The position numbers and the translations under genes are program-made. From contig NZ_JAELTI010000001.1 of assembly GCF_016428755.1 (NCBI RefSeq), positions 1 to 64,000 on the forward strand: a stretch of 64,000 bases of DNA. Direction: 5' to 3'. Positions 4,588 to 52,090 of the stretch are shown here, one piece after another (positions within the stretch are counted from its first letter, which is position 1; each line of letters opens with the position of its first letter). The notes beneath the pieces were generated by a model. It saw only the letters and a program-made list of their open reading frames with translations, made no database searches and was not told where the DNA came from. Origin of the DNA: Allobosea sp. ASV33. GTDB lineage: Bacteria > Pseudomonadota > Alphaproteobacteria > Rhizobiales > Beijerinckiaceae.

Positions 4588-7500
4588 TCAGGCGGAGGGC
4601 TCGCTGGTCGTGGAATGCCGGCGTGCTCGCGCGATCGCCTCGTCGAGGCGAGCGCGGGAGACAGCGGCCAGTCGCTCAACGCCGAGCAGACGTGCGAGAT
4701 CGCGCGCGGGGTCGGGCTGGTCGAGCAGATCCGAGTTGTCGAGGACGACCGAAGCGAGCTCGGCCAGAGGAATATCGGCGATGGGGCGACGCGCATCCTC
4801 GCTGGCCGCTTTCCGATAGGGCGCGATCTCCAATACGGCTCCCTTTCTCCAGAGGAACTCGCCACTGGACTCGCTCGTCGTGTCGAGCCCGCGCAGATGA
4901 AGATTAATGCGCTCGCGAATGCGGCCGCCGGTGCGCAGCCAGCCATGGGCCCGAGCGATGCGCTGGGCCAAGACATCGCTGCGCAGCGGGCTTTCGGCGT
5001 CGATCACGGCCTCGATCATCCCCCGCAACGTATCGCGATAGGCAAATTCATAGAACTGATCGGGTTCGGCACGGAAAGCGGATAAATCGGCGATCCGATA
5101 GGGGCGAACGCCTCTGTCGCCGGCGACGTCGGCGGCGGCTGCTTGTTCCGTGTGCGCCGGGGTGACGTTGTGAGCCATGGAGGCCGTGACCGAGACGAGC
5201 TCGGCCTCGCTGACCATTGGCGGCGGCACCGGCGTCTCGACGGGCTCTGCGACCTCTTCGTCACGGATCTCCTCGATAGCCTCGACCTCGTGCCCCATGT
5301 CCCAGCGGGTGGCTGACGGCTCCGTGTCCTCCGTCGCCTGCTCGGCAGTGGCCGCCCGGCGTATCCGGTCGTCGTCGAGCAGAGCCTGCAACTGGCCATG
5401 CAGGCGCTGCGCGCAACCCTTCGCATCGAACCACCAGTCCGTCGACCAGACGCGCAGCATGTTCCAGCCCAGCCCACGCAGCACCTGCTCGCGGACCTTG
5501 TCCCGGTCCCGCGCCGTGGCCGAGCTGTGATAGGCTGCGCCGTCGCATTCAACCCCGGCCAGATAGGCGCCAGCGAGATCGGGATGGCGTATGCCGAGAT
5601 CGATCCGGAAGCCGGAAATGCCGACCTGCGGTACCACGGTCCAACCATGCCGCTGCAACTGCGCGGCAACGGCCTCCTCGAACGGAGAATCGAAGCCGCC
5701 GGCCGACCCAGTGTCCTGCGCCGGCAAGGCCACGGCCCCACGCTCGGCATAATCGAGGAACGTCTTCAGATGCTGCACGGCGAGCGCCTTGGTACGGCTC
5801 GGGTCGATCTGGTCGGCGGTGAAGCCGGAGAACACCAGCAGCTCCTGACGGGCGCGGGTGACGGCGACGTTCAGGCGTCGCTCGCCGCCATCGCGGTTGA
5901 GGGCGCCGAAATCCATCGCCAGCTTGCCGGCTGCGTCCTTCCAGAAAGTGATCGAGAACAGGATGACGTCGCGCTCGTCACCCTGCACGTTCTCCAGGTT
6001 CTTGACGATCGTCGGCTCGACGCGCTCGTCGGCGAAGAACCACTCGAGTTCCGGCTCGTTACGGCGCGCGGCATCGAGCAGATCGAGGATCAGCGATTGC
6101 TGCTGTGCGTTGAAGGTGATCACGCCGAGGGTCGGGCGCTGCTTCTCCGGCAGCTTGAGCCAGCTCCGCATCCGGGAGACCGCCTCGTCCGCTACGGCCT
6201 GCGCCTCGATGCGGTTGGTACGGCTCTTGCCGCGATCATAGACGCCACTCGGCACCTTGCGCAGCTGCACGGCGCGGTCCTCGACGGCGGCAGAGGGGAA
6301 CGTCACGAGGCGGTTCTGATAATAGTGGTGATTGGAGAAGGCGATCAGCGACTCGCTGCGGCTGCGATAGTGCCAGCGCAGATCGCGGACCGGAATGCCG
6401 GCGGATCTCGCCTCGTCGAGAATGCTCTCCAGGTCCTTTTCGTGATCGGCGACGTCGTCCTCGTCCTCGTTGCGGCCGAAGAAGTTCGTCGGGGGCAGTT
6501 GCTTCGGATCGCCGACGATGACGGTCTGGCGCGCCCGCGCGATCGCGCCGACGGCGTCCCATGTCGTGATCTGCGAAGCCTCGTCGAAGATCACGACATC
6601 GAACGGTGCGTGGTCGGGCGGCAGATACTGCGCGATCGAGAGCGGTGACATCAGCATGCAGGGCGCTAGCTTGGCGAAGCTCTGCGGCATCCTGCCGATG
6701 ACGTCGCGGATGGACTGGCTCGGCCGCTGCAGCTCCATCTGATGCCGCAGCAATCCGAGCTCGGAGTTGCGTGGTACCCCCTGCACCGGCGGCAGCCCAT
6801 GCGCGACCCCATCGATCACCCGCTGCGCCGCATGGGATCGGACGAGATCGTCGAGTTCGCGGAATTCGGTGATCGTGTTCTCGTGCTGGAAGCGGCGGAA
6901 ATCCCGCAGGACCGCGTCGCCATCGAGAATCTTCGGCAGCCACCATCGTGCATAGCCCAAGGAAAACGCCTCGCGCGCCTTCGCCGGCGCGACGCTGCCG
7001 TCTTCGAGCGCCTGGACGAGGGGCGAAAGGCCCAGATCGACGGCGCGCCCTCTCGCCCGGCACCAGACCGACCAGTCGCGCAGCAGATGCCCCGCCTCCG
7101 CCAGCGCATCCAGGGATTGCGAGAGCGTCGCCAGCGCGGCGTGGTCGTGCGCCGTTGCGACGCCGCGCCCGGACAGCGCCGCGAACTGCCCGGCCGCGGG
7201 CTTCAGGCCCGCCAGCGCGGCCAGAAGCCTGGCTCCAGCCAATCGCGCACCACCGGCTCCGGCGGTCGCCGGTAGGCAGGGCGCGAGCGACCGCAGGAGT
7301 GAACCGACATCGTCGGTGTCGATACCCGGAATGCGCAACGCGTCGCGAAGCCGCGATGCGAGCGCGAGGATCCCGGCCACCGCGCTGGTGTCGGTCGACA
7401 GCCCCTCGACCGGCAACGGCTTTCCGACGAGAACGTTCCCGTCGATCGCCGCCAGCGCGGCCTTCATGCGCGAGAGCAGCGGCAGCTCGCGCTCCGGCTC

Positions 7501-10500
7501 GGCCATGCCCTGCGAGACATAGCCCTGCAGCATCTTCTGAACCTTGCGCCTGCCCAGCAGCGAGCCCGGCCAGAACGAGCCACTCGCCTCCCGCCATTGC
7601 CGCAACAGCGCATCGGCATCAAGACTGCGGACCACGGCGGGGGCGTAAACGGCTTGAAGTCTCCGTTCCGCGTCGCGATAGGCGGCGATATCGCCGCCAA
7701 GGGCCGCGAGCGCATCGGCGCAGCGGGAAAAATCACGATCGAAGGCGATCGAGACATCGATCCCCTGGCTCTCCTGCAAGGCGGCCGCGAGTTCGGCCAG
7801 CGCCTCCACGGCATCGGCCGAGGGTTGCGACCGGGGCTTGAGGCCGAGGCTGGCGAACGCGGCGGCAACCGCACTCGAGAGCAGGTCGATCGCATTCCGG
7901 AGTGCGCGGGCGGCGGCGAGCAGATCGTCCTGCCAGCCCGAACTCCATTCGGCGATATCGACCAGCTCGAGCGCCGGCCGCCGTTCCACCGAGGCGAACA
8001 CGACGCCGAGTTCGGCCGCCACGTCCTCGAGGCCTCGGAATGCGTCCGCACCATGCGTGTCCCGCTCGGGCCATGTGAGAGCGGGAGCGACCTCATCGGC
8101 ACCCTTGAGCGCCGTTCCGAGCGCCCGGTAGGGCGTCCAGCCGTTCCGGTGGCGGCGGTGCAAGGCTTCGACATAAGCGTTGAGGCTGTCGCGGCGCAGC
8201 CGCAGCCGCTCGTTGATGGCGATCCATTCCGACGCGTCGCTCCGGCCGCCATGCTCCCAGGCCGCCTTGAGCTGCGCGAGGAAATGGCGGCGATCGGCCT
8301 TGTTGGAATGGAGCTCGATACACCGGTCCCCGAGCCCGTGCTCGCGCAGCCGGCGATAGACGACATCGAGCGCGGCCGTCTTCTCGGCGACGAACAGCAC
8401 CGTCTTTCCGACCGCGAGGCAGTTCGCGATCATGTTGGCGATGGTCTGGCTCTTGCCGGTGCCCGGCGGCCCGACGATGACGAAATCCCGTCCTTCCGCG
8501 GCGGCGAGGCTGGCGGCCGTCTGTGAGGAATCCGAGGGGAGAAGGCTGACGATGGCGGACGGCGCATAGACACGGTCGAGATCTCGCTCGTCATGAAAGC
8601 TCGGCGGTCCGCCGTCCGGCAGGAAGCTCTGCTCCGGCGTGTCGATGAGATGACGCACGACCTTGTTCTCGCGCAGCGCCGCCGTGCGCTCGACGAGATC
8701 CTTCCACATCAGGAATTTCGCGAAAGAGAAGGTCGACAGGGCGGTTTCGTCGATGACCTCCATCCCGGGCACGTCGCGCACCGCCTGCCGTACTGAGGCG
8801 AGCAGGCGCGGCACGTCGATGCCGCTCTCGTCGATCGGCAATTCGCCGCTGAACTGCGGCAGCTTCAGATCGAAATCGCGCTCCAGGAACTGGAGCAGGG
8901 TGGCGTTGAAGCGCGGCTCGTCCTCGTGGAAACGGATCGCGAAGCGCGAGCTCGCGCTGCGCCGCTGCAGCTTGACCGGCATCAGCAGAAGCGGCGCCCT
9001 GTAGCTGCGCTCCTCCTCGGATTTCTTGCGCCAGCGCAGGAACCCGACCGCCAGAAACAAGGTGTTTGCGCCGCCTTCGGCGAAGTCGTTCTTGACCTGG
9101 CGATGCAGGTCGATGAGCCGTGCTTCGAGTTGCCTTGCGTCAAGCGTCGAGGAGAGCTCGTCCCGCAGCAGCGCCTCCGCGGCGAAACCGCGTTGCAGAT
9201 CCCGGCCGTGGACATCGCGGTACAGCGCCGCATCGCGCTCGCCGAGTGGGTTTTGCTCGGGCAGCGAGATGATGCTGACCGCGGCGCCATCGGCCAGCCT
9301 GTCCTCGAGATAGGCGATGTCTGTGCAGAGAAACGGGATGGTCTTCTTCGAGTCTGGGAAATTCAGGAGCCGGTTGCGCAGCGTCAGGTCGAGCAGCTTC
9401 TTCTGCCAGCGGTCGATGCGGCCGGCCGCGCTGGTCGGCTTCACCTCCACCATCTCGGCCGACAGGGCGCCGAAATCCGGCGCAGGCGGCAGGGGCAGCT
9501 CGGACACCGAAACAGGCTCGCCTTCTCCTTCTACCGCCGGGCGCCGGATGGGCTGATGGGAAGCGAGGGGCATGATGCCGCCGCTGCGCGAGCGCCTGAC
9601 GTCGATGGCCGCGACGAACCCATGCGCCTGCTCCTCTGCCATCCGGATATCGAGCGCCCGTTGCGCCGCTTCCATCGTCATGGCCGGGCGATGGGTCACG
9701 CCCGTCGTCTCGAAGACCACGAGCTCCCGCGAGGCTAGCGCCTTGCGCACCTCCATCTGGTCCGTCTCGATAGCGTTGGCAAAACAGCGCGGCACGAGCC
9801 AGACGCCGACCGCGGCATGACCCTGGAACAGCAGGACGACGGGATGCAGTCCTGCCGCCTCCAGCGCAGCGGCGAAGAGCAGCGTGGTATCGAGGCAGGT
9901 CGCCAGCCGCTCCTCGGCAATGGTGCTCGGGCGCCGAATCTTCTGGCCGCGACTTTCGAAGCTCGCGGGCGGCTCGGCATAATGCAATCCCAGCCCGGCA
10001 ATGGCCGAATAGATCGCTGCGGACAGCAGATAGGCGCGCTGAGGGCTCTGCGACTGGTAGCCGTCCAGGCCGCCGGCATGGCCATGAGCGGCGAGCCGGT
10101 CCGCTGCACCTCGCAGCAGCGGCGCCACGGCGGGGTCGTTGGGCAGGACAAAGGCCGGCAGCAACTGGGCCATGTCCGCGACCCCGCCCCACTCGTCGCG
10201 GGCGAGCAGGCGCACGTTCAATCTGCGTTCGTCGAGCACCTGGCCGGCCGAGGAGAGCCGCAAAGTGATCTCGCCGCGCTCCGCCTCGTCGAGGCCGGCC
10301 AGATATCGGGCGTCGAGCTCGACCTTGCGATCGCTGAGGTTCAGTTCGTCGCCGGGCAGCAGCCGGTCGATGCTCCACGATTTGGGGCGCAGGAAAGACG
10401 GCGTCGAGGTCAAATCGAGCCGGCAGCCCTCAAAATGCCGGCCGCCTAGGTTCGCGATCCGAATGGAGCGGATCACCGGTATCGCGTTCTGATAGGATGC

Positions 10501-10605
10501 GTATGTAAAGCCCGTAGCAACGTCCGGAACGATCTCTGGATTGCTTTGCTTCTCGCTATCGTCGTTTCCGGCGCTCTCCAAGTTATCTATGTCCGCGTTT
10601 TCCAT
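4588..10605 (-). CDS. Giant DUF4011 - SF1 helicase - Vsr/MTES_1575-like nuclease - DUF3320 protein
   Basis: The product is 2005 residues. An N-terminal region to ~350 precedes a DUF4011-like segment (~370-560: WQKKLLDLTLRNRLLNFPD). An SF1 helicase core follows, with Walker A GPPGTGKSQT near 709, Walker B DVVIFDEASQIT near 1340, and motifs V/VI (NVQGDERDVI, VAVTRARQELL). Around 1650-1735 is a Vsr-like endonuclease (VECDGAAYHSSATARDRDK, then GWNMLRVWSTDWW). A DUF3320-like helical domain lies near 1850-1905. This family occurs on plasmids and in defence islands as a self-contained helicase-nuclease. A GGGGAG site lies 8 bases before the ATG. It heads the operon with the SbcD/SbcC-like pair, which suggests coordinated attack on foreign or damaged DNA (inference). 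Confidence 0.87.
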   Translation of the reverse strand: MENADIDNLESAGNDDSEKQSNPEIVPDVATGFTYASYQNAIPVIRSIRIANLGGRHFEGCRLDLTSTPSFLRPKSWSIDRLLPGDELNLSDRKVELDARYLAGLDEAERGEITLRLSSAGQVLDERRLNVRLLARDEWGGVADMAQLLPAFVLPNDPAVAPLLRGAADRLAAHGHAGGLDGYQSQSPQRAYLLSAAIYSAIAGLGLHYAEPPASFESRGQKIRRPSTIAEERLATCLDTTLLFAAALEAAGLHPVVLLFQGHAAVGVWLVPRCFANAIETDQMEVRKALASRELVVFETTGVTHRPAMTMEAAQRALDIRMAEEQAHGFVAAIDVRRSRSGGIMPLASHQPIRRPAVEGEGEPVSVSELPLPPAPDFGALSAEMVEVKPTSAAGRIDRWQKKLLDLTLRNRLLNFPDSKKTIPFLCTDIAYLEDRLADGAAVSIISLPEQNPLGERDAALYRDVHGRDLQRGFAAEALLRDELSSTLDARQLEARLIDLHRQVKNDFAEGGANTLFLAVGFLRWRKKSEEERSYRAPLLLMPVKLQRRSASSRFAIRFHEDEPRFNATLLQFLERDFDLKLPQFSGELPIDESGIDVPRLLASVRQAVRDVPGMEVIDETALSTFSFAKFLMWKDLVERTAALRENKVVRHLIDTPEQSFLPDGGPPSFHDERDLDRVYAPSAIVSLLPSDSSQTAASLAAAEGRDFVIVGPPGTGKSQTIANMIANCLAVGKTVLFVAEKTAALDVVYRRLREHGLGDRCIELHSNKADRRHFLAQLKAAWEHGGRSDASEWIAINERLRLRRDSLNAYVEALHRRHRNGWTPYRALGTALKGADEVAPALTWPERDTHGADAFRGLEDVAAELGVVFASVERRPALELVDIAEWSSGWQDDLLAAARALRNAIDLLSSAVAAAFASLGLKPRSQPSADAVEALAELAAALQESQGIDVSIAFDRDFSRCADALAALGGDIAAYRDAERRLQAVYAPAVVRSLDADALLRQWREASGSFWPGSLLGRRKVQKMLQGYVSQGMAEPERELPLLSRMKAALAAIDGNVLVGKPLPVEGLSTDTSAVAGILALASRLRDALRIPGIDTDDVGSLLRSLAPCLPATAGAGGARLAGARLLAALAGLKPAAGQFAALSGRGVATAHDHAALATLSQSLDALAEAGHLLRDWSVWCRARGRAVDLGLSPLVQALEDGSVAPAKAREAFSLGYARWWLPKILDGDAVLRDFRRFQHENTITEFRELDDLVRSHAAQRVIDGVAHGLPPVQGVPRNSELGLLRHQMELQRPSQSIRDVIGRMPQSFAKLAPCMLMSPLSIAQYLPPDHAPFDVVIFDEASQITTWDAVGAIARARQTVIVGDPKQLPPTNFFGRNEDEDDVADHEKDLESILDEARSAGIPVRDLRWHYRSRSESLIAFSNHHYYQNRLVTFPSAAVEDRAVQLRKVPSGVYDRGKSRTNRIEAQAVADEAVSRMRSWLKLPEKQRPTLGVITFNAQQQSLILDLLDAARRNEPELEWFFADERVEPTIVKNLENVQGDERDVILFSITFWKDAAGKLAMDFGALNRDGGERRLNVAVTRARQELLVFSGFTADQIDPSRTKALAVQHLKTFLDYAERGAVALPAQDTGSAGGFDSPFEEAVAAQLQRHGWTVVPQVGISGFRIDLGIRHPDLAGAYLAGVECDGAAYHSSATARDRDKVREQVLRGLGWNMLRVWSTDWWFDAKGCAQRLHGQLQALLDDDRIRRAATAEQATEDTEPSATRWDMGHEVEAIEEIRDEEVAEPVETPVPPPMVSEAELVSVTASMAHNVTPAHTEQAAAADVAGDRGVRPYRIADLSAFRAEPDQFYEFAYRDTLRGMIEAVIDAESPLRSDVLAQRIARAHGWLRTGGRIRERINLHLRGLDTTSESSGEFLWRKGAVLEIAPYRKAASEDARRPIADIPLAELASVVLDNSDLLDQPDPARDLARLLGVERLAAVSRARLDEAIARARRHSTTSEPSA

Positions 10606-38322: not shown

Positions 38323-39354
38323 ATGAACCACGCATCGACGCTTGCAAGGCGGCTGCTCGGGATCGCACTCGCGTTCGCCTTTTGCGCTCTATCGGCGCAG
38401 GCGCAGACACAGGAAAAGGCGCCGGAAAAGATCTCGACGACTCCGGGCCAACACGTGATCGTCAAGCGCGTCGCGGGGGCGGTCTCGGAGGAGAAGGTCG
38501 AGGCAAAGGGGGCGGGCGTGGCGCTCCAGAAGGACGGGGCAGAGACCGTCGTCGTGTACCTGCCGCCTCCGGGCGTCGATCGCCTGGACGACAAGGTCAC
38601 GTTCAAGGTCGGCGGCGTGGCGGTCGCCCCAATCCCGGTCACGGTCTCCGCCGCGGGCGCGGCCAAAGGGACAGACCTGACCGCCGCCAACCTCTACGAG
38701 CCTTCCTTCAAGGCGCTGTTCATCCTGTTCGTGCTCGCCGTGTTGTTAGAGAACGCCCTCGCGCTGCTTTTCCGCTGGCAGCCGTTCCTGGCCACTTTCA
38801 ACTCCCGCAACCTCACGCCGGTTATCGCCTTCGTTGTCTCGTTCATCTTCGTGGCCACGTTCGGGCTCGACGTCGTCACCTCGCTGACCAACATCTACAC
38901 CCAGTCGAGCCATCCCTCCGACCTGCCCGGGCGCCTGGTCACGGCGATGATCGTCGCCGGCGGCAGCGCCGGCGTGAACAGGATCCTGCAGACGTTCGGG
39001 TTCCGGGCCATCGGGACGCCTGACCAGCAGGTCCGGAGCACCTTGCGCGAAGACCAGGGCTGGATCTCCGTGAGGCTGGTCCGCGAGCGGTCCCACGGCG
39101 TGGTCGAGGTTCTGCTCGACGACCAGGCGATCGGCCAGGTCGGGACCGGCACCGAGGTGACCGGGCCGCTCCGGCATTTCCTCCGAAACCCGGTACGGTT
39201 CCCTCAGTCGGGCGGCTACGTGGTCGAGGCCGGCAAGGCGCACAAGATCGAGCTGAAGGGCGTCGACGCCATGGGAAAGGCGCTGCCCTTGGCGGCCTGG
39301 GGTCCGGCCCCGGTGGGGCCTCGCGCCATCCTCGACCTCGTTGTCAAGCTTTGA
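38323..39354 (+). CDS. Exported protein with two transmembrane segments
   Basis: 343 residues from the ATG at 38323. A signal peptide (LLGIALAFAFCALSAQA, cleavage near 27) is followed by a beta-rich extracytoplasmic part. Two helices follow: ~130-150 (ALFILFVLAVLLENALALLF) and ~164-184 (LTPVIAFVVSFIFVATFGLD). A soluble C-terminal domain of ~120 residues is rich in strands (GVVEVLLDDQAIGQVG, YVVEAGKAHKIEL). No family recognised. It is first in the operon with the SIR2-ATPase (58 bp gap) and HNH genes, so a sensor or anchor role at the membrane is plausible (inference). Confidence 0.6.
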   Translation: MNHASTLARRLLGIALAFAFCALSAQAQTQEKAPEKISTTPGQHVIVKRVAGAVSEEKVEAKGAGVALQKDGAETVVVYLPPPGVDRLDDKVTFKVGGVAVAPIPVTVSAAGAAKGTDLTAANLYEPSFKALFILFVLAVLLENALALLFRWQPFLATFNSRNLTPVIAFVVSFIFVATFGLDVVTSLTNIYTQSSHPSDLPGRLVTAMIVAGGSAGVNRILQTFGFRAIGTPDQQVRSTLREDQGWISVRLVRERSHGVVEVLLDDQAIGQVGTGTEVTGPLRHFLRNPVRFPQSGGYVVEAGKAHKIELKGVDAMGKALPLAAWGPAPVGPRAILDLVVKL

Positions 39355-39412
39355 CGACCATCGGTGTGTCGAAATCCGACACGCCCAACCCACACCGAGG
39401 TTCGTGCCGACG

Positions 39413-42301
39413 ATGAGCAGATTGGCCGCCATCCTTCTGATCTCGGCGCTGGCGTTCGTCGCCGGCATGGACCTCGGCGCCCACGGGCAGGGCGCCGCGC
39501 CCCAGACCAGCCCGGACGTTGACGGGAAGGCCGCGGCGCCAAACTCCGTCGCGCCGCCGCAGGTCACGACGTTGCTCCTCCAACCGCCGGTGCCCAGCCC
39601 GCTTCGGCTCCACCAACCAGCGACCGCCGAATTCATGATCGAGTTCGAGCACGGCGATCCCGCTACGGCGCGACGCGAGGCCAATCGACTGGTCGGAGAG
39701 CTGTCGCTCGTGACGGACGGCGGCGCGATCCTTCCGGCGTTCCTGACCGTGACCAAGGTCGCGCCGTCGGACTCCCAACGCTCGTTCCGCGCCTTCGGCG
39801 CCGTCGGGTTCACGCCGGACGACCGGAGCACCAGCGCGTTCGTCGGCCTGTCGCTCGCGCCGAGCCGCCTCCTCATCCTGGCGTCCAAGGACGGCTCCCT
39901 CAAATCGAACTTCGTACCCGTGGAGATCGGAAGCTCGATCAGGGCGCTGATCGCCGGCGGATTGGCGGCGACGTCAGTCGTCCTCGCAATTGGCTGGTTC
40001 GTGGTCAGAAGGAACCGGTATCGCCGGATCCTCGAAGCCGAGCGGTCGTTGGCCTACGGCGAGCGTCCCGTGCAGATCGATCGGGAGCTGCGGCCCTTCT
40101 ACGAGGTGCCGCCTCCCGAGCCGCCCGAGGCCCTCCTTGAGGCGTTGAGGATGGGCAGGGCCATCCTCGTGCTCGGCAGCGGCGCCTCGGCCCAAGCCGG
40201 CGTGCCCTCCGCCCGCGTCTTGATCAACAGGCTCATCAACCGCTTCGACACACGCCTGCCGTCGGGCTTCGCGGAGGCGCTGAACTCACGCTCCACCGAT
40301 TTCAGCCGCTCGATGGACGCGTTGATGGGCGTCCTCCACCGGGAAGAGATGGCGTCGGCGCTGAAGGACATCCTCTCGCATGCCGATCCCGACCTGACCT
40401 TCCACCGAATGCTCGCCTCGCTCCCCTGGAAATCGGTGGTGGACCTGACCTGGGATCACGTCGCGCAGCCCGTCTTCACCAGGGAGATGGCCGCGCAGAA
40501 GGGCGAATGGGCAGTCGCCACCCTGGACGAGTCGGCGGAGCTGCTGACCAGCATCCGCGCGAACAAGCGCACCTTCCTGAAACCCTTGGGCGAGCTGGAT
40601 AGAACCGCCTCCCTGTCGCTGTCGATGGACGAGTTCCGCCGCAACCTGACGCGATGGCCGGAATTCACCCGACAGGTCGGGTTGCAATTCCAAACCCACA
40701 CCGTGCTCTTCGTCGGCGCCGGGGCCGACACCATCGAGCAGTTCCTGCAGGCGATCGGGTCGGACGCCGTGCGAACGCCCTCCCGACATTTTTCGCTCGT
40801 TCCGGGCGGGCCGGACAACGAGGTGTTCAGGTCGACCCTGGGCCGGTTCGGCGTGGAGCTGTTGCCCTATCCGGTCGATGGCGCGCATAGCCAGGTCTCG
40901 CGCTTCGTCATGCGCGTCGTCGAGCGGCACAAGGCCACGCAGCAATATCGCTCGCCGGAGCCCGCGACCTTCGACCGCGAGTTGGCGAGTTCCCGGATCA
41001 GGAGGCTGACCCTCCATAATGTCGGGCACTTCGAAGCGCTCGAACTGAACTTCCGCGACGAGCCTATAGAGGGGGAGGCCGGGCTGCCGTGGACAGTGAT
41101 CTTCGGGCCGAACGGATGCGGGAAGTCGACCATCCTGCGCGCAATCGGATTGGCGCTGGTCGGAAACGAGACGACGGCGCCGATGGGACGGCTCCTAAGG
41201 CTTGGCGAACGGGACGGAGCGATCGAGCTTTCCTTCGGAAACCAGGAGTTCCGCACCCAGCTGACCCGCGACAGGGACGCGGTGGTGGTCAAGTCGCACC
41301 AAACGACCCCGGTCCAGGCGGGGCTCAGCCTCGTCCTCGGCTTCCCGGCCCTGCGCGGCGGCCCCTCGACCAATCCGAAGGGCGTCGCCGCCGTCGAGAG
41401 GAGCAAGCCGGCCCCGGCGGACTTGATGCCGCTCGTCAACGTAGAAGTCGAGAAGCGGCTAGTCGGCTTCAAGCAGTGGATGATCAACGTTCTCGAACAG
41501 GCTGGCCGTGGCGATCGCAACGCCATGGCCATGAAGCAGCTCCTTGACGAGATCATCCGCGACATCGTCCCCGGACGGTTTCGGAAATTCGCGCCCCTCG
41601 ATGTCACCTACGTCATCAAGGTGAAGCTGGATGATGCAGACACCGCTTCGCCGACGGACGTGCCGTTCGACGACATCAGCCAGGGCATGGCCTCCATCTT
41701 CAACTGGCTCGGGATCCTGGTGCAGCGCATGTACGACTTCTACCCCGACTCGCCGGCTTCGCAGAAAGAGCCAGCGGTCGTGCTCATCGACGAGATCGAC
41801 GCACACCTCCATCCGGACTGGCAAAGGAAGCTCGTGGAGATGACGAAGCGGCTTTTCCCTGCGGTGCAGGTGATCGCCACCTCCCACTCCCCCTTGCTGG
41901 CGGGCGCCCTGCGTAAAGAGGAGCTGTGCGTCCTGGGTCAGGATGCTAGATCCGGCGTCGTACGGGTACAAACCATCCAAGCCGACTTCTTCGGCCAGAA
42001 CAGCCAGCAGATACTCACGAGCTTCGTGTTCGGCCTGAAATCGGATCGGAATCCCGAGACCGAACGAGCGATAGAACGCTACTTCGACCTCTTCGAGAGG
42101 CGACAGCGGACGCAGGCGGAACAGGGTGAGCTCAGGGCCCTCGGTGCCGAACTCGAACGCGTAGGTTACGGCTCGGTCCTGACCGGGGAGGCGGAGGTCA
42201 AGGCGATCGAGCCCGAGTGGTCCGAGGTGCAGATCGAGGCCCTCAACAAGCATTTCGCCAAGGCCGACGAAAGGCCCGGATCGACGGGGGGGACGGTATG
42301 A
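39413..42301 (+). CDS. Membrane-anchored SIR2-like - PtuA/SMC-type ATPase fusion
   Basis: 962 residues from the ATG at 39413. Residues 1-25 are a signal-like hydrophobic segment. Residues 30-175 form an extracytoplasmic beta-rich region, followed by a TM helix (~177-198, LIAGGLAATSVVLAIGWFVV) with a basic stop-transfer. A SIR2-like Rossmann domain follows (VLGSGASAQAGVPSA at 253-267, VLFVGAGADTIEQFL at ~431-445). The C-terminal half is an ABC/SMC-type ATPase: Walker A GPNGCGKST (565-573), signature-like DDISQGMAS (753-761), Walker B VVLIDEIDAHLHPDW (789-803), and H-loop TSHSPLL. This half resembles Septu PtuA and OLD-family ATPases without a Toprim domain. The next gene is an HNH nuclease overlapping by 4 bases, as in PtuAB. 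SIR2 catalytic positions look degenerate. Confidence 0.78.
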   Translation: MSRLAAILLISALAFVAGMDLGAHGQGAAPQTSPDVDGKAAAPNSVAPPQVTTLLLQPPVPSPLRLHQPATAEFMIEFEHGDPATARREANRLVGELSLVTDGGAILPAFLTVTKVAPSDSQRSFRAFGAVGFTPDDRSTSAFVGLSLAPSRLLILASKDGSLKSNFVPVEIGSSIRALIAGGLAATSVVLAIGWFVVRRNRYRRILEAERSLAYGERPVQIDRELRPFYEVPPPEPPEALLEALRMGRAILVLGSGASAQAGVPSARVLINRLINRFDTRLPSGFAEALNSRSTDFSRSMDALMGVLHREEMASALKDILSHADPDLTFHRMLASLPWKSVVDLTWDHVAQPVFTREMAAQKGEWAVATLDESAELLTSIRANKRTFLKPLGELDRTASLSLSMDEFRRNLTRWPEFTRQVGLQFQTHTVLFVGAGADTIEQFLQAIGSDAVRTPSRHFSLVPGGPDNEVFRSTLGRFGVELLPYPVDGAHSQVSRFVMRVVERHKATQQYRSPEPATFDRELASSRIRRLTLHNVGHFEALELNFRDEPIEGEAGLPWTVIFGPNGCGKSTILRAIGLALVGNETTAPMGRLLRLGERDGAIELSFGNQEFRTQLTRDRDAVVVKSHQTTPVQAGLSLVLGFPALRGGPSTNPKGVAAVERSKPAPADLMPLVNVEVEKRLVGFKQWMINVLEQAGRGDRNAMAMKQLLDEIIRDIVPGRFRKFAPLDVTYVIKVKLDDADTASPTDVPFDDISQGMASIFNWLGILVQRMYDFYPDSPASQKEPAVVLIDEIDAHLHPDWQRKLVEMTKRLFPAVQVIATSHSPLLAGALRKEELCVLGQDARSGVVRVQTIQADFFGQNSQQILTSFVFGLKSDRNPETERAIERYFDLFERRQRTQAEQGELRALGAELERVGYGSVLTGEAEVKAIEPEWSEVQIEALNKHFAKADERPGSTGGTV

Positions 42302-43146
42302 GACGCGTTCGCAAAGCCGTCGGGACCGATGCGGAATGGTCCGACCTCACCGCGGTCTCCCAAGCCGGACGCAGGAAGCTCGTCGAGGATTTCGACAAGG
42401 GCGAGGAGCTACGGATCGACGACCGGATCTACAAGAAATACATGTCCTACCTAATCGCTCTGTTCGACGAGAAGTGTGCCTATTGCGAGACCAACATCAC
42501 CAGCAATCAACCCGGGGACGTGGAGCACTATCGCCCCAAGGGCCGCGTCGTCGACGAGAACCTAAAGCCGGTGCCGTTCACGCATCCGACCCGGGGGGCG
42601 ATGGACCATCCCGGTTACTATTGGCTCGCCTACGACTGGGACAACCTGCTGCCGTCCTGCACGGACTGCAACCGACGGCGGTTTCATGGCGAGGACGAGG
42701 GAGCGGCTGGCAAGGCGGATCGATTCCCCATAAGTGGTCCGCGCGCCTGCGCGCCAGGACAGGAGGCCGGAGAGGAACCCCTTCTGATCGATCCTAGCGT
42801 GACGGACCCGGCGGAGCATTTGAAGTTCCTGCCCGATGGTCGGATCGCTCCGCTAACCAAGGTCGGAGAGGTGACGCTGGCGGTATTAGGTTTGAATCGA
42901 AGGGAAGGGCTTCTCAAGGCCCGACACGCAGCGTTCCTCAACGCCCGCGCGCTGCTGCGTCAGTATTGCGCCGCGGTCGTCTCTGCATCCACGGAGGAAC
43001 AGGCGGAGCAGCGCGAGCGTATCAACGCCGCATGGGAAGGGAAGGAGCCTTACACGGTCATGCAACAGTTGGGGTTCCAGTCGGTCTTGAACCAGATGAG
43101 GTCGGGAGGAGTTTATCTTACGCTCCCCATACCCGCCCAGGAGTGA
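42298..43146 (+). CDS. HNH endonuclease, PtuB-like
   Basis: 282 residues. An HNH/zinc-ribbon core: Cys60-x2-Cys63 (EKCAYCETNI), DVEHYRPKG with His77, then YDWDNLLPSCTDCNRRRFHG with Asn116 and Cys121-x2-Cys124. The order and spacing match the PtuB nuclease of Septu and similar retron-associated HNH proteins. The ATG overlaps the SIR2-ATPase stop (ATGA), so the two are coupled. In Septu the ATPase-HNH complex degrades nucleic acid on phage infection; the same is inferred here. Confidence 0.82.
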   Translation: MRRVRKAVGTDAEWSDLTAVSQAGRRKLVEDFDKGEELRIDDRIYKKYMSYLIALFDEKCAYCETNITSNQPGDVEHYRPKGRVVDENLKPVPFTHPTRGAMDHPGYYWLAYDWDNLLPSCTDCNRRRFHGEDEGAAGKADRFPISGPRACAPGQEAGEEPLLIDPSVTDPAEHLKFLPDGRIAPLTKVGEVTLAVLGLNRREGLLKARHAAFLNARALLRQYCAAVVSASTEEQAEQRERINAAWEGKEPYTVMQQLGFQSVLNQMRSGGVYLTLPIPAQE

Positions 43147-43258: not shown

Positions 43259-44386
43259 ATGTCGGACATGGTGGATGATGGGATTGCGCTTTGCCTGTCG
43301 GGCGGCGGCTACCGCGCCATGGTCTTCCATCTCGGTGCGCTCCTTCGGCTGAACGAAGCCGGCCTACTCTCGAGGCTGTCGAGGGTTTCGTCCGTCTCCG
43401 GCGGCTCGATCACCGCGGCCTACCTCGGTCTCCGCTGGAAGGATCTTCATTTCAAGGACGGTCGAGCCGCCAATCTGGAGGCCGTCGTCACGGGGGTCCG
43501 GAAGATGGCAAGGACGTCCGTGGACGTCGGCGCCGTCCTCAAGGGCATCTTGCTACCGGGTTCGATCAGCGAGCGCGTCGCCGCAGCATATGATGAGGTC
43601 CTGTTCGAGGGCGCGACGCTCGCCGACCTGCCGGACGACGCAGGCGGCAAGGCCCCACGCTTCGTGCTGAACGCGACCAACGTGCAGTCGGCCGCCCTCT
43701 GGCGCTTCTCGCGTCCCTACATGGGCGACTACAGGGTCGGCCGCGTCCGGTCGCCCAAGGTGGCCCTGTCGCTGGCCGTCGCCGCTTCATCGGCCTTTCC
43801 GCCCATCCTGTCGCCGCTCACGCTGCCCGTCGACGGCCCCTACCAGGACGTCGACGGCGGCGACCTGCAGAGGCCCGAGTTCCGCGACGCCGTGGTCCTC
43901 AGCGACGGCGGTGTCTACGACAACCTCGGACTGGAGACCGCGTTCAAGCGCCACCGCACCTTGCTGGTCAGCGACGCCGGCCAGAAGATTCAGGCGGAGG
44001 AGGGTCCGGCGGACGACTGGGCCCGGCATTCGCTCCGCATTCTCGACGTCGTCGACAACCAGGTGCGGAGCCTGCGCAAGCGCCAGCTGATCGGCTCGTT
44101 CGAGAGCGGCGAGCGGACGGGAGCATATTGGAGCGTCCGAACGAGGTTCGAGGACTACGAACTCGCGAACGACCCCCTCGGCTGCTGCGCGCGAAGCTCC
44201 GACCCATTGGCGGCCGTACCGACCCGGCTTGAGGCCATGCCCGACAAGCTCCAGGAACGGCTGATGAACTGGGGCTATGCGATCACCGATGCAGCGCTTC
44301 GCGCGCATTTCCCGCAGGATCTGCAGGCGCGTCTCGGTGTCGTCGTCTCGCTCCCGAATGGGTTTCCGTATCCGGGCGGCTACTAG
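43259..44386 (+). CDS. Patatin-like phospholipase
   Basis: 375 residues. Patatin motifs: oxyanion-hole glycines in SGGGYRA (14-20), nucleophile Ser47 in SVSGG, and the catalytic Asp216 in SDGGVYDN. VSSVSGGSITAAYLGLRW is the expected nucleophile-elbow helix. A downstream segment (HRTLLVSDAGQ) also fits the family. Patatin-like lipases serve as membrane-damaging effectors in several anti-phage systems. It follows the HNH gene by 112 bp on the same strand, so it may be a second effector of the island or an adjacent independent gene. A second in-frame ATG at 43268 is possible. Confidence 0.82.
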   Translation: MSDMVDDGIALCLSGGGYRAMVFHLGALLRLNEAGLLSRLSRVSSVSGGSITAAYLGLRWKDLHFKDGRAANLEAVVTGVRKMARTSVDVGAVLKGILLPGSISERVAAAYDEVLFEGATLADLPDDAGGKAPRFVLNATNVQSAALWRFSRPYMGDYRVGRVRSPKVALSLAVAASSAFPPILSPLTLPVDGPYQDVDGGDLQRPEFRDAVVLSDGGVYDNLGLETAFKRHRTLLVSDAGQKIQAEEGPADDWARHSLRILDVVDNQVRSLRKRQLIGSFESGERTGAYWSVRTRFEDYELANDPLGCCARSSDPLAAVPTRLEAMPDKLQERLMNWGYAITDAALRAHFPQDLQARLGVVVSLPNGFPYPGGY

Positions 44387-44721: not shown

Positions 44722-46074
44722 CTAATGACCAGCCGCCGGTTCGATCTCGAGTTCGACGAATATCTCACCGCTGATCATGGTCTCAATGTCCGTGCGCCAA
44801 GGCTGCGGCTTATCGAGCCATTGTCGTTCGTATTCTACATAGAGTGGGAGCGTTCGCGCCCGCTCGTCGCCGAGGAGCGAAAAGTAGTTGCGCGTGTTGC
44901 TGACGCGGCTGCCGATTTCCAGCAGGAGCGGCGATTTGGGGATCGGGTCGTACTTGGTGCGATCGGTGGAAACAACGGCCATAGCGGTGGGCTTCTTATT
45001 GCCCTTGGGCCGCGGCAGGATGGCGTCGAGGATGCTACTCGGCTCGGTCTGCTTGCCGTCCTCCCGGTCGTTCCAGGGCGTCGAGTTGGTGCTGCCGTGG
45101 TGGCCTATTTTGAGGAAGTCGACCGGCTTGCCGAGCTCGATCTTATGTTTTTCCCAGGCGACATTCCACGCGAAGTTCTTCTTACCTTCGACATAGGCCC
45201 CGTTCCACTCGGCGTCGCCGACGAACAGCAGGCGCCGCCCGCGCCACTCGATGAGCAGGATGACGCTGGTGTTGTTGACCACCTCGCCCTCCTCCTCGGC
45301 GAAGGCGAACACGTTTGACATCATTCGCGAGCGCAGGCGTCGGAAATCCGTGCCGCTGATGTTGGCGGGCGGAGCAGCGTCCAGCGCCGCAGCTGCGGCG
45401 GGCGAGCGCATGGCGCCGTTGGCGGCAAGAGCAAAGGTTTGTACGATGGTCCCGGCGTCCTCGCCCAGATAATAGTAATCGATATTTTCCTGTGGGCCGA
45501 GGACCTTGAACGCGGCGCCGGTGAGCGTCTCTGGCTGGAGCTTGGGAGCCGGAAGGCTGGCATGGACGTAGAGCGGTTCGATCTTGTTCTGCTTGGGCAA
45601 CGTTTCTGTGAGCGCCGTGAGTGCGCCATCATTGGCGATATGATAGCGCGATACGATGTCCTGCAACTCCGGGCTAAGCGACAGGTTTCGCGCCGCGATG
45701 CTGCGCATGGCCAGCGCCACCTCATCGTGAAGCTTGTGCTTGAACTCTGCCTGCGGATGTTTGCGGTTCATCGCCACGCTCATCCAGAGGTTCTCGATCA
45801 AGACGTCCTTGAACCAGTCGGGATCGAAACCCTTGATGTGATCCTCGTGCTCATGACTGACCAGCAACAGGTCGAGCCGGCGTTTGCCGTCGATCTTGGG
45901 CAGCTTCGTTTTAAGGTGATCGACGGCGACTTTGAGCACCGCGCCTTTTCCCCTTGTTCCGCAGTCGATGAGGATATGGAAATCGGCGCCATCTTTGCGG
46001 GCCTTCGGGATGGTCACGTGGATGCAGTCGCCAACGCCAACCGAGTAAGCGTGGATCAGGAGCTTATCGACCAC
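44722..46074 (-). CDS. Metallo-beta-lactamase-fold hydrolase (ComEC/Rec2-like)
   Basis: 450 residues. MBL core with LLIHAYSVGVGDCIHV, ILIDCGT, and the metal motif SHEHEDH (73-79). Later come RRLLFVGDAEW and LKIGHHGSTNS, typical of the stand-alone ComEC-like MBL branch acting on nucleic acids or nucleotides. No membrane helices. The gene overlaps the upstream metallopeptidase gene by 19 bases, so the two are co-translated. Substrate unknown; the peptidase-MBL pairing suggests a two-component effector or processing system. Confidence 0.8.
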   Translation of the reverse strand: MVDKLLIHAYSVGVGDCIHVTIPKARKDGADFHILIDCGTRGKGAVLKVAVDHLKTKLPKIDGKRRLDLLLVSHEHEDHIKGFDPDWFKDVLIENLWMSVAMNRKHPQAEFKHKLHDEVALAMRSIAARNLSLSPELQDIVSRYHIANDGALTALTETLPKQNKIEPLYVHASLPAPKLQPETLTGAAFKVLGPQENIDYYYLGEDAGTIVQTFALAANGAMRSPAAAAALDAAPPANISGTDFRRLRSRMMSNVFAFAEEEGEVVNNTSVILLIEWRGRRLLFVGDAEWNGAYVEGKKNFAWNVAWEKHKIELGKPVDFLKIGHHGSTNSTPWNDREDGKQTEPSSILDAILPRPKGNKKPTAMAVVSTDRTKYDPIPKSPLLLEIGSRVSNTRNYFSLLGDERARTLPLYVEYERQWLDKPQPWRTDIETMISGEIFVELEIEPAAGH

Positions 46075-48570: not shown

Positions 48571-50115
48571 ATCCGCGCCGCTGACGAGCGACTTGTTCTG
48601 CCTGGAACCAGCAAGGAGGTGATCGGACGTAAGGTCGTGGAATCCGTCCTCGCCAAGCGCGGGACATGGGAGATCCTGGTCAAACGAGAAGGGCGGGCGG
48701 AAGCGGAGCGGCTTTTGCGCCTGACGGGGGCTGGCCCCACGGGAGAGTATCCGCTTGCAGAGGTCGAGGCCGACCATACACCGCTTGACGTCATGGTCAT
48801 GGAAGGAGGCGTCGTTCTCGGCAGGCCTTGGCTCACCATGCTCATCGATCGCTTCTCGCAGATGGTGCTGGGCTTCTCGATTTCCTTCGTTCCACCGTCT
48901 TGGGTCTCGGTCATGGAGGCTCTGCGACATGCCGTCCTGCCCAAGGACGAGGAACTTCAGCGCTGGGCGGAGTATGACGGAAAGCCATTCCAGTTCGACT
49001 GGCCATGCTTCGGGGCACCCGACGTCCTCATCGTTGACCAGGGATCTGAATTTCTCTCGGCTTCGATGGTCGCGACCGAAGCAGCCCTCAACATGAGGCT
49101 TCTCCAGCTGCCGAAAGCCAGCGGCGACAAGAAGGGCACGATCGAGGGTCAGTTTCACCGCCTCAATCGCGAACGCATGCATAGTATGAACGGCACGACG
49201 TTTTCGAACCCTCAGAAGCGCGGCAAATACAAATCACAGGACGACGCGATCTTCTCACTCAACGATGTTCGCTACGTCGTCATCAGATGGGTGGTCGATA
49301 CGCATAACCGCACTCCCAATTCCAGGACCAACAAGATTCCTGCCGAGCTGTGGCGGAAGGGGATGGACGAGGTCGGCCAAAAACCGGCGCCGCCTAAGGA
49401 ACTCATCGCCCCGCTCGTCGGAAAGGTCGTTTCCTGTAAGCTGCGCCGGGAGGGCGTCCGCCACAAAAAACTGCGTTGGAACTCGAACGCTTTTCGCGCT
49501 CTGCGAGAAAGGGTCGGACGGTCCTGTGACGTCCTGATCCGCATCGATCCTAAGGATCTCCGAAAGGGCTACGTCCTCGATCCAGATACACATGCTTGGA
49601 TCGAAGGCGATCTGATGGCCGAGCGCTCGATCGAAAACATGACGCTCGGCCAGTACGAGTTCCTCAAGGCCAGAACCGATGATGCACGGGTCGTCGACGA
49701 GGACTACGAGCTAAAGCTCGCGCGCGGCAGCCAAGCTCAATTCGATTTTGTCGAAAAGCGCAGGCGCCAGAACGGCGTCATTCCGAAGCCGATCGCGGCC
49801 TTCATCACGGAGGGGTCCCGGGCGGTCGAGCACATTCATGGTGAACGCCACGATCAACAAGCCAGTGCGCAGGCGGTCGGAACCCACAATCTCGATGGGC
49901 CCATTCTTTCACCTGCTCCGGATCCGAACGGCCCATATCGCGATGCCGTGCTGCGGCCCGTCGACCCGTATCCAAAGCGAGATGAGACAGGGCGCTATCC
50001 CGGGGATTGGCAGCCCCCTCCCCCCATCGCGCTTTCAGCGCCTGCCGCATTGCCGGAACCAGATGTGCAGCCCCTGCCATCTCCCCAAACCTATGTCGGG
50101 CGACGTCGCCGATGA
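48571..50115 (+). CDS. tniA: TniA/TnsB-like DDE transposase, 5'-truncated
   Basis: The frame is open from 48571 after a stop at 48568-48570; a GTG at 48619 overlaps an AAGGAGG and is poorly spaced, so the start is uncertain. Counting from 48619, the rve/RNase-H catalytic triad is present: Asp52 (ADHTPLD), Asp140 (IVDQGSEF) and Glu176 (GTIEGQFH). The Mu-type C-terminal domain follows. The usual 150-200-residue N-terminal DNA-binding HTH domains are missing or frameshifted, so the transposase is probably defective. Translationally coupled to tniB (ATGA overlap). Confidence 0.8.
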   Translation: MRAADERLVLPGTSKEVIGRKVVESVLAKRGTWEILVKREGRAEAERLLRLTGAGPTGEYPLAEVEADHTPLDVMVMEGGVVLGRPWLTMLIDRFSQMVLGFSISFVPPSWVSVMEALRHAVLPKDEELQRWAEYDGKPFQFDWPCFGAPDVLIVDQGSEFLSASMVATEAALNMRLLQLPKASGDKKGTIEGQFHRLNRERMHSMNGTTFSNPQKRGKYKSQDDAIFSLNDVRYVVIRWVVDTHNRTPNSRTNKIPAELWRKGMDEVGQKPAPPKELIAPLVGKVVSCKLRREGVRHKKLRWNSNAFRALRERVGRSCDVLIRIDPKDLRKGYVLDPDTHAWIEGDLMAERSIENMTLGQYEFLKARTDDARVVDEDYELKLARGSQAQFDFVEKRRRQNGVIPKPIAAFITEGSRAVEHIHGERHDQQASAQAVGTHNLDGPILSPAPDPNGPYRDAVLRPVDPYPKRDETGRYPGDWQPPPPIALSAPAALPEPDVQPLPSPQTYVGRRRR

Positions 50116-51257
50116 ACAACTCGAAAGCCCCCTCCTCCATGCAGCCCTTTATTGAGCGCGCCACCGCGAGGCCTTTGCGATCCCCCCACTGGAGCGATGC
50201 TTCCGTTTCCCGGCGTCTTAGCCACATCGGAAAGTTTGTCGCCGTGACGCCCAGCCTGCAGAGCTCGATCTCCTTTATCCAGACGTTGATGGCCAGCCAT
50301 CTCACCGCCCCTGAAGGTGAGATCGCATTCCTGCTCGGGGAAACCCGCGCTGGCAAGACGACGGCGATTAACGAGGTGATCGCGGAAACGGCGGAGGAAA
50401 CCGGCGGCCAGATTGTAAGCCAGCTTCTTGATGACCAGCGCGATTCCGAGGCGATGGTCTCGGTCCTGGTGAAGACGCCGAACGGGTGGGAGCGTCCCAT
50501 CGTCAAGATCTACGTGCCCAAAGCCCCGACATTCAACGGCCTGCTGAACGACGTGTTGCTCGCCTTCGACATCAAATTGCCGAGATCCGCGACGTTCGCC
50601 GAGCGGCAATTGGCACTCGGCCGCCAATTGAAGGGCCAGGCGACCCGCCTCGTGGTATTCGACGATACCCAGCACATCTGCGAGAAGGGCAAAACCTCCG
50701 CCGCCTACGAGGGAGCGGACGTCTTCAAGGTTCTGGCCAAAACCGGCCAGGCTCAAGTTCTGTGTGTCGGTCTTGAACACACCATCGAGATCAAGGACGC
50801 CAATCCTCAGGCCGAGTGGCTCGGCGGCGAAGTGCATGTCGTCAGACCACACGACATTACGGCAGAGCGGAGCTCGTCGCTCGCAACCTATTGCGCGACC
50901 CTGAACAAGGAATTGCCTTTCGATACACCGAGTGCCCTTGGAGAGCCCGACGTCTTTCTGCCGCTCGGCACGTACTGCGATGGTTATGAAGGGCGCATCG
51001 CCACGATCGTGCGCTTGGCGGCGCGCTATGCGATCGAGCGCAACCTGCCCTGCCTCAACCGCCTGGTCTTCGAAAACTACCTGCGCGACAAACTCCAGAT
51101 CGCCGATCAGGAGAATCCATTCCGAATGACCGCTGAGGAGCTGGAAACGCTCCCGGCTCTGGTGGCTGCGGCTCGGAAGGATCGCATCGTCAGCGCCGAA
51201 AAGCGGCGTTCACGGGGGAAGCGAAACCGGACCGCGTTCGGAGCCCGCGGCCGGTGA
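50112..51257 (+). CDS. tniB: TniB/TnsC-like AAA+ ATPase
   Basis: 381 residues. Walker A GETRAGKTT (76-84), Walker B LVVFDDTQHI, sensor-like ATPase features (AQVLCVGLEHTIEIKD) and a C-terminal helical domain. This is the transposition regulator that selects targets with TniQ and stimulates TniA. It overlaps tniA by 4 bases and tniQ by 4 bases (GTGA). Confidence 0.88.
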   Translation: MNNSKAPSSMQPFIERATARPLRSPHWSDASVSRRLSHIGKFVAVTPSLQSSISFIQTLMASHLTAPEGEIAFLLGETRAGKTTAINEVIAETAEETGGQIVSQLLDDQRDSEAMVSVLVKTPNGWERPIVKIYVPKAPTFNGLLNDVLLAFDIKLPRSATFAERQLALGRQLKGQATRLVVFDDTQHICEKGKTSAAYEGADVFKVLAKTGQAQVLCVGLEHTIEIKDANPQAEWLGGEVHVVRPHDITAERSSSLATYCATLNKELPFDTPSALGEPDVFLPLGTYCDGYEGRIATIVRLAARYAIERNLPCLNRLVFENYLRDKLQIADQENPFRMTAEELETLPALVAAARKDRIVSAEKRRSRGKRNRTAFGARGR

Positions 51258-52090
51258 GCTCAACTGATCAGTTGTCGTGGGCGCCACCGCGCTGGACACC
51301 AGTGCTGCGCTCCGAGGAGCCGGCGCATGGCTTATACCTTCGTCTGTGCGACACCAATGGTCTCGCCAGGAGCGCCATAATGCGAACCCTGACCGGAGTG
51401 CGCTGCGAGAGGGTTTGGAACGGCCGTGATCTACATGCGCTCGCCGAGATCTCCAAATGCCCGATGGCTGACCTCGAACGAAGCGCTTTCCGGGGCGGCT
51501 CAGGCCGAGCGATCCGCGTGCGCGAGCACGTCCTTGACTCCAGAGACGATCTTTTGAAGTCGCCGCGAAGGTCGTGCCCTGACTGCCTCAACGAGTCTCA
51601 TCATCATCGCTTGTGGTGGGATCTCGCCTTCATCGCCACCTGCCCCCGGCATCTGCGACGGCTAGCCTCGCATTGCAGCTGCGGACGACCTCTCAGCTGG
51701 AAGGACGGCCTGCTCGCGCGATGCTTCGCATGCGACCACGGTGACGTCGCTGCGGTAGCGGTTGAAGAAGCCGACATCTATGTTGTCGAACTCGACCGCT
51801 GGTTTCTTGCGCAGCTCGGCGTTGGTGATGTTTCCTTGATTCCGCCAGCGCTCCACGGCTTGCAGCTTCGGCAGGCAATTCAGGTCATCGAGCGGACCGC
51901 CGTGCTCGACCTCTTGGGCTACGATGACCCGAATGCGGGGCTTTACGATCTTCATATGGATGCCGCCAAGGCACGAGCTCACGGCTTTCGCCTGATATAC
52001 GAGGGGCGCCTCGAGGCTCTTCTCGACCGTGTTCATGCCGGTAATGTGGGCGACTGGATCAAGCTTATTCGGGATAGCATGATCCGCTAG
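51254..52090 (+). CDS. tniQ: TniQ-family target-selection protein
   Basis: 278 residues from a GTG overlapping the tniB stop. N-terminal PDEPAHGLYLRLC-like start (SEEPAHGLYLRLCDTNG) and a zinc-ribbon set typical of TniQ: SCPDC, ATCPRH, then HCSCG and RCFACDHG. It is shorter than many TniQ proteins, lacking an extended C-terminal region. It should direct the TniAB complex to target DNA. No resolvase (tniR) follows. Confidence 0.85.
   Translation: MSSTDQLSWAPPRWTPVLRSEEPAHGLYLRLCDTNGLARSAIMRTLTGVRCERVWNGRDLHALAEISKCPMADLERSAFRGGSGRAIRVREHVLDSRDDLLKSPRRSCPDCLNESHHHRLWWDLAFIATCPRHLRRLASHCSCGRPLSWKDGLLARCFACDHGDVAAVAVEEADIYVVELDRWFLAQLGVGDVSLIPPALHGLQLRQAIQVIERTAVLDLLGYDDPNAGLYDLHMDAAKARAHGFRLIYEGRLEALLDRVHAGNVGDWIKLIRDSMIR

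Follow-up and report, generated by a model that had tools for sequence, protein, structure and literature searches.

The window, by which we mean the whole stretch of 64,000 nucleotides from Allobosea sp. ASV33 that was analysed, contains a gene whose predicted product joins an N-terminal membrane part, a SIR2-like domain and a PtuA-type ATPase, and directly behind it lies a gene for a PtuB-type HNH nuclease. The frame of the fusion gene is open on the forward strand from 39341 to 42301 (986 codons counted from a TTG), with a likely start at the ATG at 39413, and the ATG of ptuB (42298) overlaps the stop codon of the fusion gene in the sequence ATGA. The features of the locus are as follows.

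38323..39354, +: membrane protein gene (hydropathy), ending 58 bases upstream of the fusion gene; may or may not belong to the system
39413..42301, +: gene for the fusion protein of 962 amino acids, with transmembrane, probable pseudo-SIR2 and PtuA parts (ORF reading; likely ATG at 39413)
39422..39478, +: hydrophobic N-terminal stretch, a signal peptide or first transmembrane helix (hydropathy maximum 2.15 over 19 residues)
39950..40006, +: predicted transmembrane helix followed by basic residues (hydropathy 2.09; topology predicted)
about 40124..40936, +: SIR2-like domain (SIR2_2; family-free profile E 6.1e-31, Pfam SIR2_2 29.2 bits, AF2 pLDDT 84)
40175..40201, +: nucleotide-binding loop GSGASAQAG, intact and identical in three family members
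40211..40213, +: Ala at the usual Trp position behind the loop (Trp in 45 of 80 canonical domains; Ser and Thr in the two relatives)
40442..40456, +: DLTWD at the position of TTNYD, with Thr for Asn (hhalign and profile alignment)
40577..40594, +: LKPLGE at the position of KxHG, with Leu for His (hhalign and profile alignment)
40991..42130 (limits approximate), +: PtuA-type ABC/SMC-like ATPase (PADLOC PtuA 1.4e-51; PDB PtuA by profile, 1.5e-41, and by fold)
41105..41128, +: Walker A of the PtuA part, GPNGCGKS (motif reading, alignment)
41789..41800, +: Walker B of the PtuA part, DEID (motif reading, alignment)
42298..43146, +: PtuB-type HNH nuclease gene (PADLOC PtuB 8.7e-53, for the frame from 42217; HNH residues conserved)
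43259..44386, +: patatin-like phospholipase gene (Pfam Patatin 3.7e-18), 112 bases downstream of ptuB; may or may not belong to the system

The roughly 157 residues that separate the two hydrophobic stretches of the fusion protein are probably periplasmic, judging from hydropathy.

Only three members of this family are known. A tblastn search with the N-terminal part against 72,556 plasmid records returned one record, the megaplasmid of Ruegeria pomeroyi DSS-3, where the relative is WP_011241907.1 and is annotated as an 'AAA family ATPase'. A scan of genome contigs with a two-row alignment added one further member, from Mitsuaria sp. GD03876, out of 94 candidate stretches. One of the two narrow patterns used in that scan was the loop itself, so that conservation of the loop in Mitsuaria is partly selected, whereas the Ruegeria protein was found without a loop pattern. 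The Ruegeria and Mitsuaria proteins are 31 and 32% identical to the window protein (31-34% across the three lineages), and both have the same order of transmembrane, SIR2 and PtuA parts, with a PtuB gene directly behind. When the whole Ruegeria protein was compared with plasmids, 78 records matched, one of them covering 80% or more. No further SIR2-PtuA protein turned up in samples of 200 genomes of relatives, 385 of the class, 398 of the phylum and 397 of the order, which overlap and are not additive; the other matches in these samples were all canonical domains with Asn and His, namely four among the relatives (L003-L006), one in the phylum (L009) and 11 in the order (L219-L229). Viral contigs yielded no relatives from 123 and 104 candidate stretches, no phage record matched the SIR2 domain of the window, and no match came from viral scans that each used one of two canonical SIR2 proteins as query. 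The SIR2 part was likewise absent from the PtuA frame in the 80 viral PtuA-like loci kept (118 found). At one locus (L136), a SIR2-profile match lies in a separate frame, on the strand opposite to a viral PtuA-like gene. The literature searched, mostly titles and abstract openings, gave no description of a SIR2-PtuA fusion.

The earlier note on this DNA had read the SIR2-like domain as keeping its nucleotide-binding loop while carrying DLTWD in place of TTNYD and KPLG where the catalytic His is expected, and alignment by two routes places the motifs exactly there. In an hhalign comparison of the three family members with four canonical SIR2_2 proteins (probability 99.6%, 269 columns), LTWD aligned to LNFD, replacing Asn by Thr, and KPLG to KPHG, replacing His by Leu. 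A SIR2 profile trained without the family gave the same mapping of Asn and His, and matched the three members at E values of 6.1e-31, 1.5e-25 and 5e-22. All three also exceed the curated Pfam cut-off for SIR2_2 (PF13289, 24.5 bits), with 29.2, 27.8 and 41.4 bits. The column of the catalytic Asn of TTNxD holds Thr, Val and Thr, and that of the catalytic His of KxHG holds Leu, Trp and Phe (the pairs are Thr/Leu, Val/Trp and Thr/Phe). Since every member has lost both residues and still passes the Pfam cut-off, the loss goes beyond chance or sequencing error. The Trp behind the loop is also gone from all three (Ala, Ser, Thr). Of 82 canonical domains, 74 have an Asp behind the second Gly motif, at a position where the family shows Thr, Ser or no aligned residue. 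The His that precedes the Asn motif in 51 of 81 canonical domains is kept in the window and Mitsuaria proteins and is Tyr in Ruegeria. In FAM118B, the modelled place of W65 is beside the nicotinamide, N163 keeps the pocket together, and H206 is close to the ribose hydroxyls (PMC12700824); mapped by motif, the lost Trp would correspond to W65.

Retained in the family are G-x-G-x-S (GSGAS in all three members), the next Pro, the Asp of NxD, the Gly of HG and a later Gly. The three domains share 41 identical residues among 266 gap-free columns, and nine consecutive ones make up the loop. The loss of the catalytic residues might in principle reflect a decaying, functionless remnant, but this is highly improbable and was rejected because of the conservation across three lineages: the frame is open, architecture and loop are kept at 31-34% identity, and residues have been lost at identical positions.

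The claim that the domain is catalytically dead is well supported for the whole family, as far as sequence can tell, with Asn, His and Trp missing from three of three members. A different Asn/His pair in the active site, which the earlier note had named as a refuting observation, was considered and, at the level of sequence, rejected, because the three-member alignment of the domain contains no invariant Asn or His at all. For the domain still to be an enzyme, other residues would have to do the chemistry, or a partner would be required, for instance the genome's other SIR2_2 protein, which is canonical; we regard this as improbable. Such cooperation does have a precedent in FAM118A and FAM118B, each reported to be weak alone and active together (PMC12700824); the family domain has invariant Asp, Glu and Arg residues, and the second SIR2_2 gene of the same genome has its Asn and His intact, in TNFD and HIHG (L072, G000:C33:61377-63790). 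However, that gene is on another contig (C33), an invariant Asn or His is lacking in the family, and, according to PMC12700824, the two residues show high and strict conservation in both FAM118 paralogues, unlike in the window family.

A wider tally of SIR2_2 domains with the family-free profile comprised 110 rows from 116 loci, with identical frames counted once and two rows gapped at both positions. The canonical Asn and His were present in 83 of 108 domains. Trp occupied the Asn column in 16 of the 108 (six of these with His kept), four had kept Asn and exchanged the catalytic His for Asn, and two combined Asn with Met or Val. Both residues were lost in 13 of the 108, ten from the Trp group and the three family members, and among these GxGxS was kept only in the family. 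The four domains in which Asn replaces the catalytic His (L084, L089, L090 and L112) may represent another inactive type. The three family members grouped as one clade (100/99) in a tree of 107 SIR2 domains, and its nearest neighbour was the Trp clade (90/82, not starred, and subject to the program's long-branch warning).

This second degenerate clade consists of SIR2_2 proteins of about 290-400 amino acids with a GPG loop and Trp at the Asn column (for example L213:5949-6803, L214:6118-7257 and L215:5981-6847, with 15 further tree rows). Asn is lost in 16 of its 18 tree rows, and the loop is GPG or broken. Three of its loci were opened: NifH and a NifB-like protein are encoded at two, with a nitrogenase component 1 protein (Pfam) at one of these as well, and the third encodes a class V aminotransferase; no PtuA fusion was present at any of the three. 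No paper linking a SIR2 family protein to a nif cluster turned up in a literature search.

The earlier note had also called for structure prediction and superposition on the SIR2 domains of ThsA and DSR. An AF2 model of the SIR2-like domain (pLDDT 84, pTM 0.84), for which 14 of the 16 input rows were canonical viral SIR2 proteins so that part of its SIR2 likeness stems from the input, matched the fold of ThsA with Z 22.8 (rmsd 3.9, 276 residues aligned), on KomC with Z 22.4 (3.2, 250) and on DSR2 with Z 22.2 (4.0, 271); SPARSA (20.6), FAM118B (19.5) and Avs5 (18.7) followed. By sequence profile, the first PDB matches were FAM118B (5.3e-6) and ThsA (9.3e-5). The prediction agrees with a SIR2 fold, while the claim about the active site itself comes from the sequence and profile alignments. 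A full-length model made without canonical SIR2 rows was poor (pLDDT 58.7, pTM 0.46; blocks of ten residues ranged from 31 to 76 in the SIR2 part and from 34 to 91 in the ATPase part), and its quality is too low for the SIR2 part to be placed on the ATPase. For the ATPase part of this model, PtuA or retron-PtuAB entries stood in the first 21 rows of matches (Z 21.4-28.7).

Several of the nearest solved SIR2 domains (ThsA, KomC, FAM118B, Avs5) carry titles that describe helical assemblies or filaments. These fit the explanation that the SIR2-like domain is purely a scaffold, serving PtuA oligomerisation or the link to the membrane part with no ligand, as do the loss of three pocket residues and of the Asp behind the second Gly motif. 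Conservation of the loop speaks against it: identity in three of three members, in a domain with 41 identical columns among 266, is beyond the needs of a surface scaffold, although for Mitsuaria this partly reflects search bias. On balance we consider a pure scaffold rather unlikely in itself, yet a close rival of the best explanation given below.

The PtuA-PtuB arm has its motifs intact. The residues of Walker A, S-x-G and Walker B are invariant in all seven PtuA sequences aligned (the three family members and four plain plasmid PtuA), and all seven PtuB sequences aligned have the HNH Cys, His and Asn in common. Profile searches of the PDB matched PtuA at 1.5e-41 and PtuB at 5.5e-9. The NCBIfam equivalogs for Ec78 PtuA and PtuB gave 100.3 of 500 and 47.9 of 150 bits, and since these models match below their cut-offs, the locus is a distant branch of Septu. 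A search with RVT_1 found no reverse transcriptase in the one genome (the control matched in 3 of 14), and a retron reading (type I-A) was rejected for this reason. In an E. coli Septu system, Walker mutants and HNH mutants each abolish defence (PMC13096335); that system is reported to cleave tRNA-Tyr. A review gives phage DNA or ssDNA as the target of Septu in other cases, and describes PtuAB in retron-Septu as arrested by msDNA until infection (PMC12948488). This retron restraint is absent from the Allobosea genome, because the genome has no reverse transcriptase.

The membrane protein and patatin genes flank the fusion gene and ptuB in the window, and the membrane protein gene is absent beside the Ruegeria and Mitsuaria relatives. 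In two of four plasmid loci opened (one of the four without annotation), relatives of the membrane protein lie directly behind a patatin gene (L125:3326-5600 and L127:3577-5648). Among plain plasmid PtuA-PtuB pairs, the upstream gene was annotated DUF2235 in three of the four loci opened (L129:1237-2397, L131:1095-2264 and L132:554-1702; the exception is L130), and the one such gene that was scanned has a Tle1-like phospholipase domain. Together, the DUF2235/Tle1-like genes, the patatin gene of the window and the CHAT-DUF7379 gene of Ruegeria suggest that Septu can have lipase-type partners. Elsewhere in the window, 44722-46074 (-) encodes an MBL-fold protein that weakly resembles LmuA (1.6e-20) and, below that family's cut-off, 6A-MBL, and 48619-52090 (+) holds consecutive TnsB-like, TniB and TniQ genes, a transposition module close to the island that we take to be of Tn7/Tn5053 type. 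A protein of 2005 amino acids at 4588-10605 (-) is a helicase-nuclease with DUF4011, MTES_1575 REase and DUF3320 domains, a kind that often occurs in defence islands.

Taken together, the evidence makes it very probable that the SIR2-like domain is a pseudoenzyme, conserved as such, and that it belongs to a Septu variant tethered to the membrane with PtuB as effector. That PtuB is the likely effector follows from the fusion of the SIR2 domain to a PtuA ATPase with the PtuB HNH gene behind it. A dead SIR2 site next to an intact PtuB is most simply explained if PtuB does the acting and the SIR2 part serves in regulation or assembly. PtuB, as an HNH nuclease, would be the acting component, with the PtuA-type part as its ATPase partner, and the transmembrane and periplasmic parts would put the complex at the membrane. 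The SIR2-like domain, which appears to have kept its fold and phosphate-binding loop and to have lost the residues that cut NAD, would most likely gate or assemble the PtuA-PtuB complex, and would probably bind, but not hydrolyse, a nucleotide (NAD, ADP-ribose or a relative). The best explanation of the whole is therefore a membrane-tethered Septu, presumably directed against phage, in which a pseudo-SIR2 domain gates or assembles PtuA-PtuB, probably through a nucleotide held unhydrolysed; the same layout across three lineages and the missing retron restraint count in its favour, and we put it a little short of an even chance. The one pointer to a bound nucleotide is the intact GSGAS loop. Against nucleotide holding count the loss of the Asp after the second Gly motif and the nearest clade in the tree, which is also degenerate and lacks the loop.

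The earlier note had suggested that the domain is an effector turned into a sensor. This is plausible, although the segment it described ended before the fused PtuA ATPase and ptuB, and a scaffold would fit almost as well. In its most specific form, the dead SIR2 domain would be a ligand-gated, membrane-tethered lock on PtuAB that replaces the reverse transcriptase and msDNA, with gain or loss of a nucleotide or signal molecule freeing PtuB; this we hold to be unlikely as it stands, and the search bias at the loop slightly lowers the odds of a ligand switch. In the main reading, the pseudo-SIR2 domain and the anchor on the N-terminus of PtuA would take over the restraint exerted by msDNA, possibly via a bound nucleotide. 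If the ligand-gated lock exists, one immune effector's fold would have turned into a sensor for another, and regulation may likewise be the sole reason why SIR2 domains persist in the nif-linked degenerate clade, which would be a second such case. A profile match alone easily leads one to take the SIR2 domains of bacterial immunity for NAD-depleting effectors, and this lineage shows that this can be an error; it offers a testable example of an immune effector fold turned regulator. For Septu, it adds a membrane-anchored layout and raises the question of what restrains PtuAB without a retron.

Each component has counterparts in known systems. The SIR2 domains of ThsA (Thoeris), DSR2, KomC, Avs5 and SPARSA are NADases that need Asn and His. 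The window domain has their fold and GxGxS loop in common with them, but lacks the catalytic Asn and His, and the effector of the window system is probably the HNH protein. The vertebrate SIR2_2 proteins FAM118B and FAM118A belong to the same subfamily, and FAM118B is the best PDB match by sequence profile; in contrast to the window protein, they keep Asn and His, and the matched region has no ATPase and no transmembrane part. SIR2-HerA has, to our knowledge, no membrane anchor. In this system, also called Nezha, a SIR2 domain and an ATPase cooperate within one complex (PMC12948488, PMC12198126); as described there, it differs from the window in having separate genes, HerA instead of PtuA and an active NADase. 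The nif-linked degenerate clade shares the loss of Asn with the window family, but has a GPG or broken loop, Trp at the Asn column and, at the three loci, no PtuA fusion. Closest are Septu and the PtuAB of retrons Ec78, Eco7 and Ec83, which share the ATPase and HNH motifs, the gene order and the matches to PDB profiles and the ATPase fold. The pair in the window differs in that its genome has no reverse transcriptase, its scores fall below the NCBIfam cut-offs for Ec78 PtuA and PtuB, and its PtuA carries fused N-terminal transmembrane and SIR2-like parts. The parts were known already; what appears new, within the literature searched, is their combination and the loss of the active site throughout the family.
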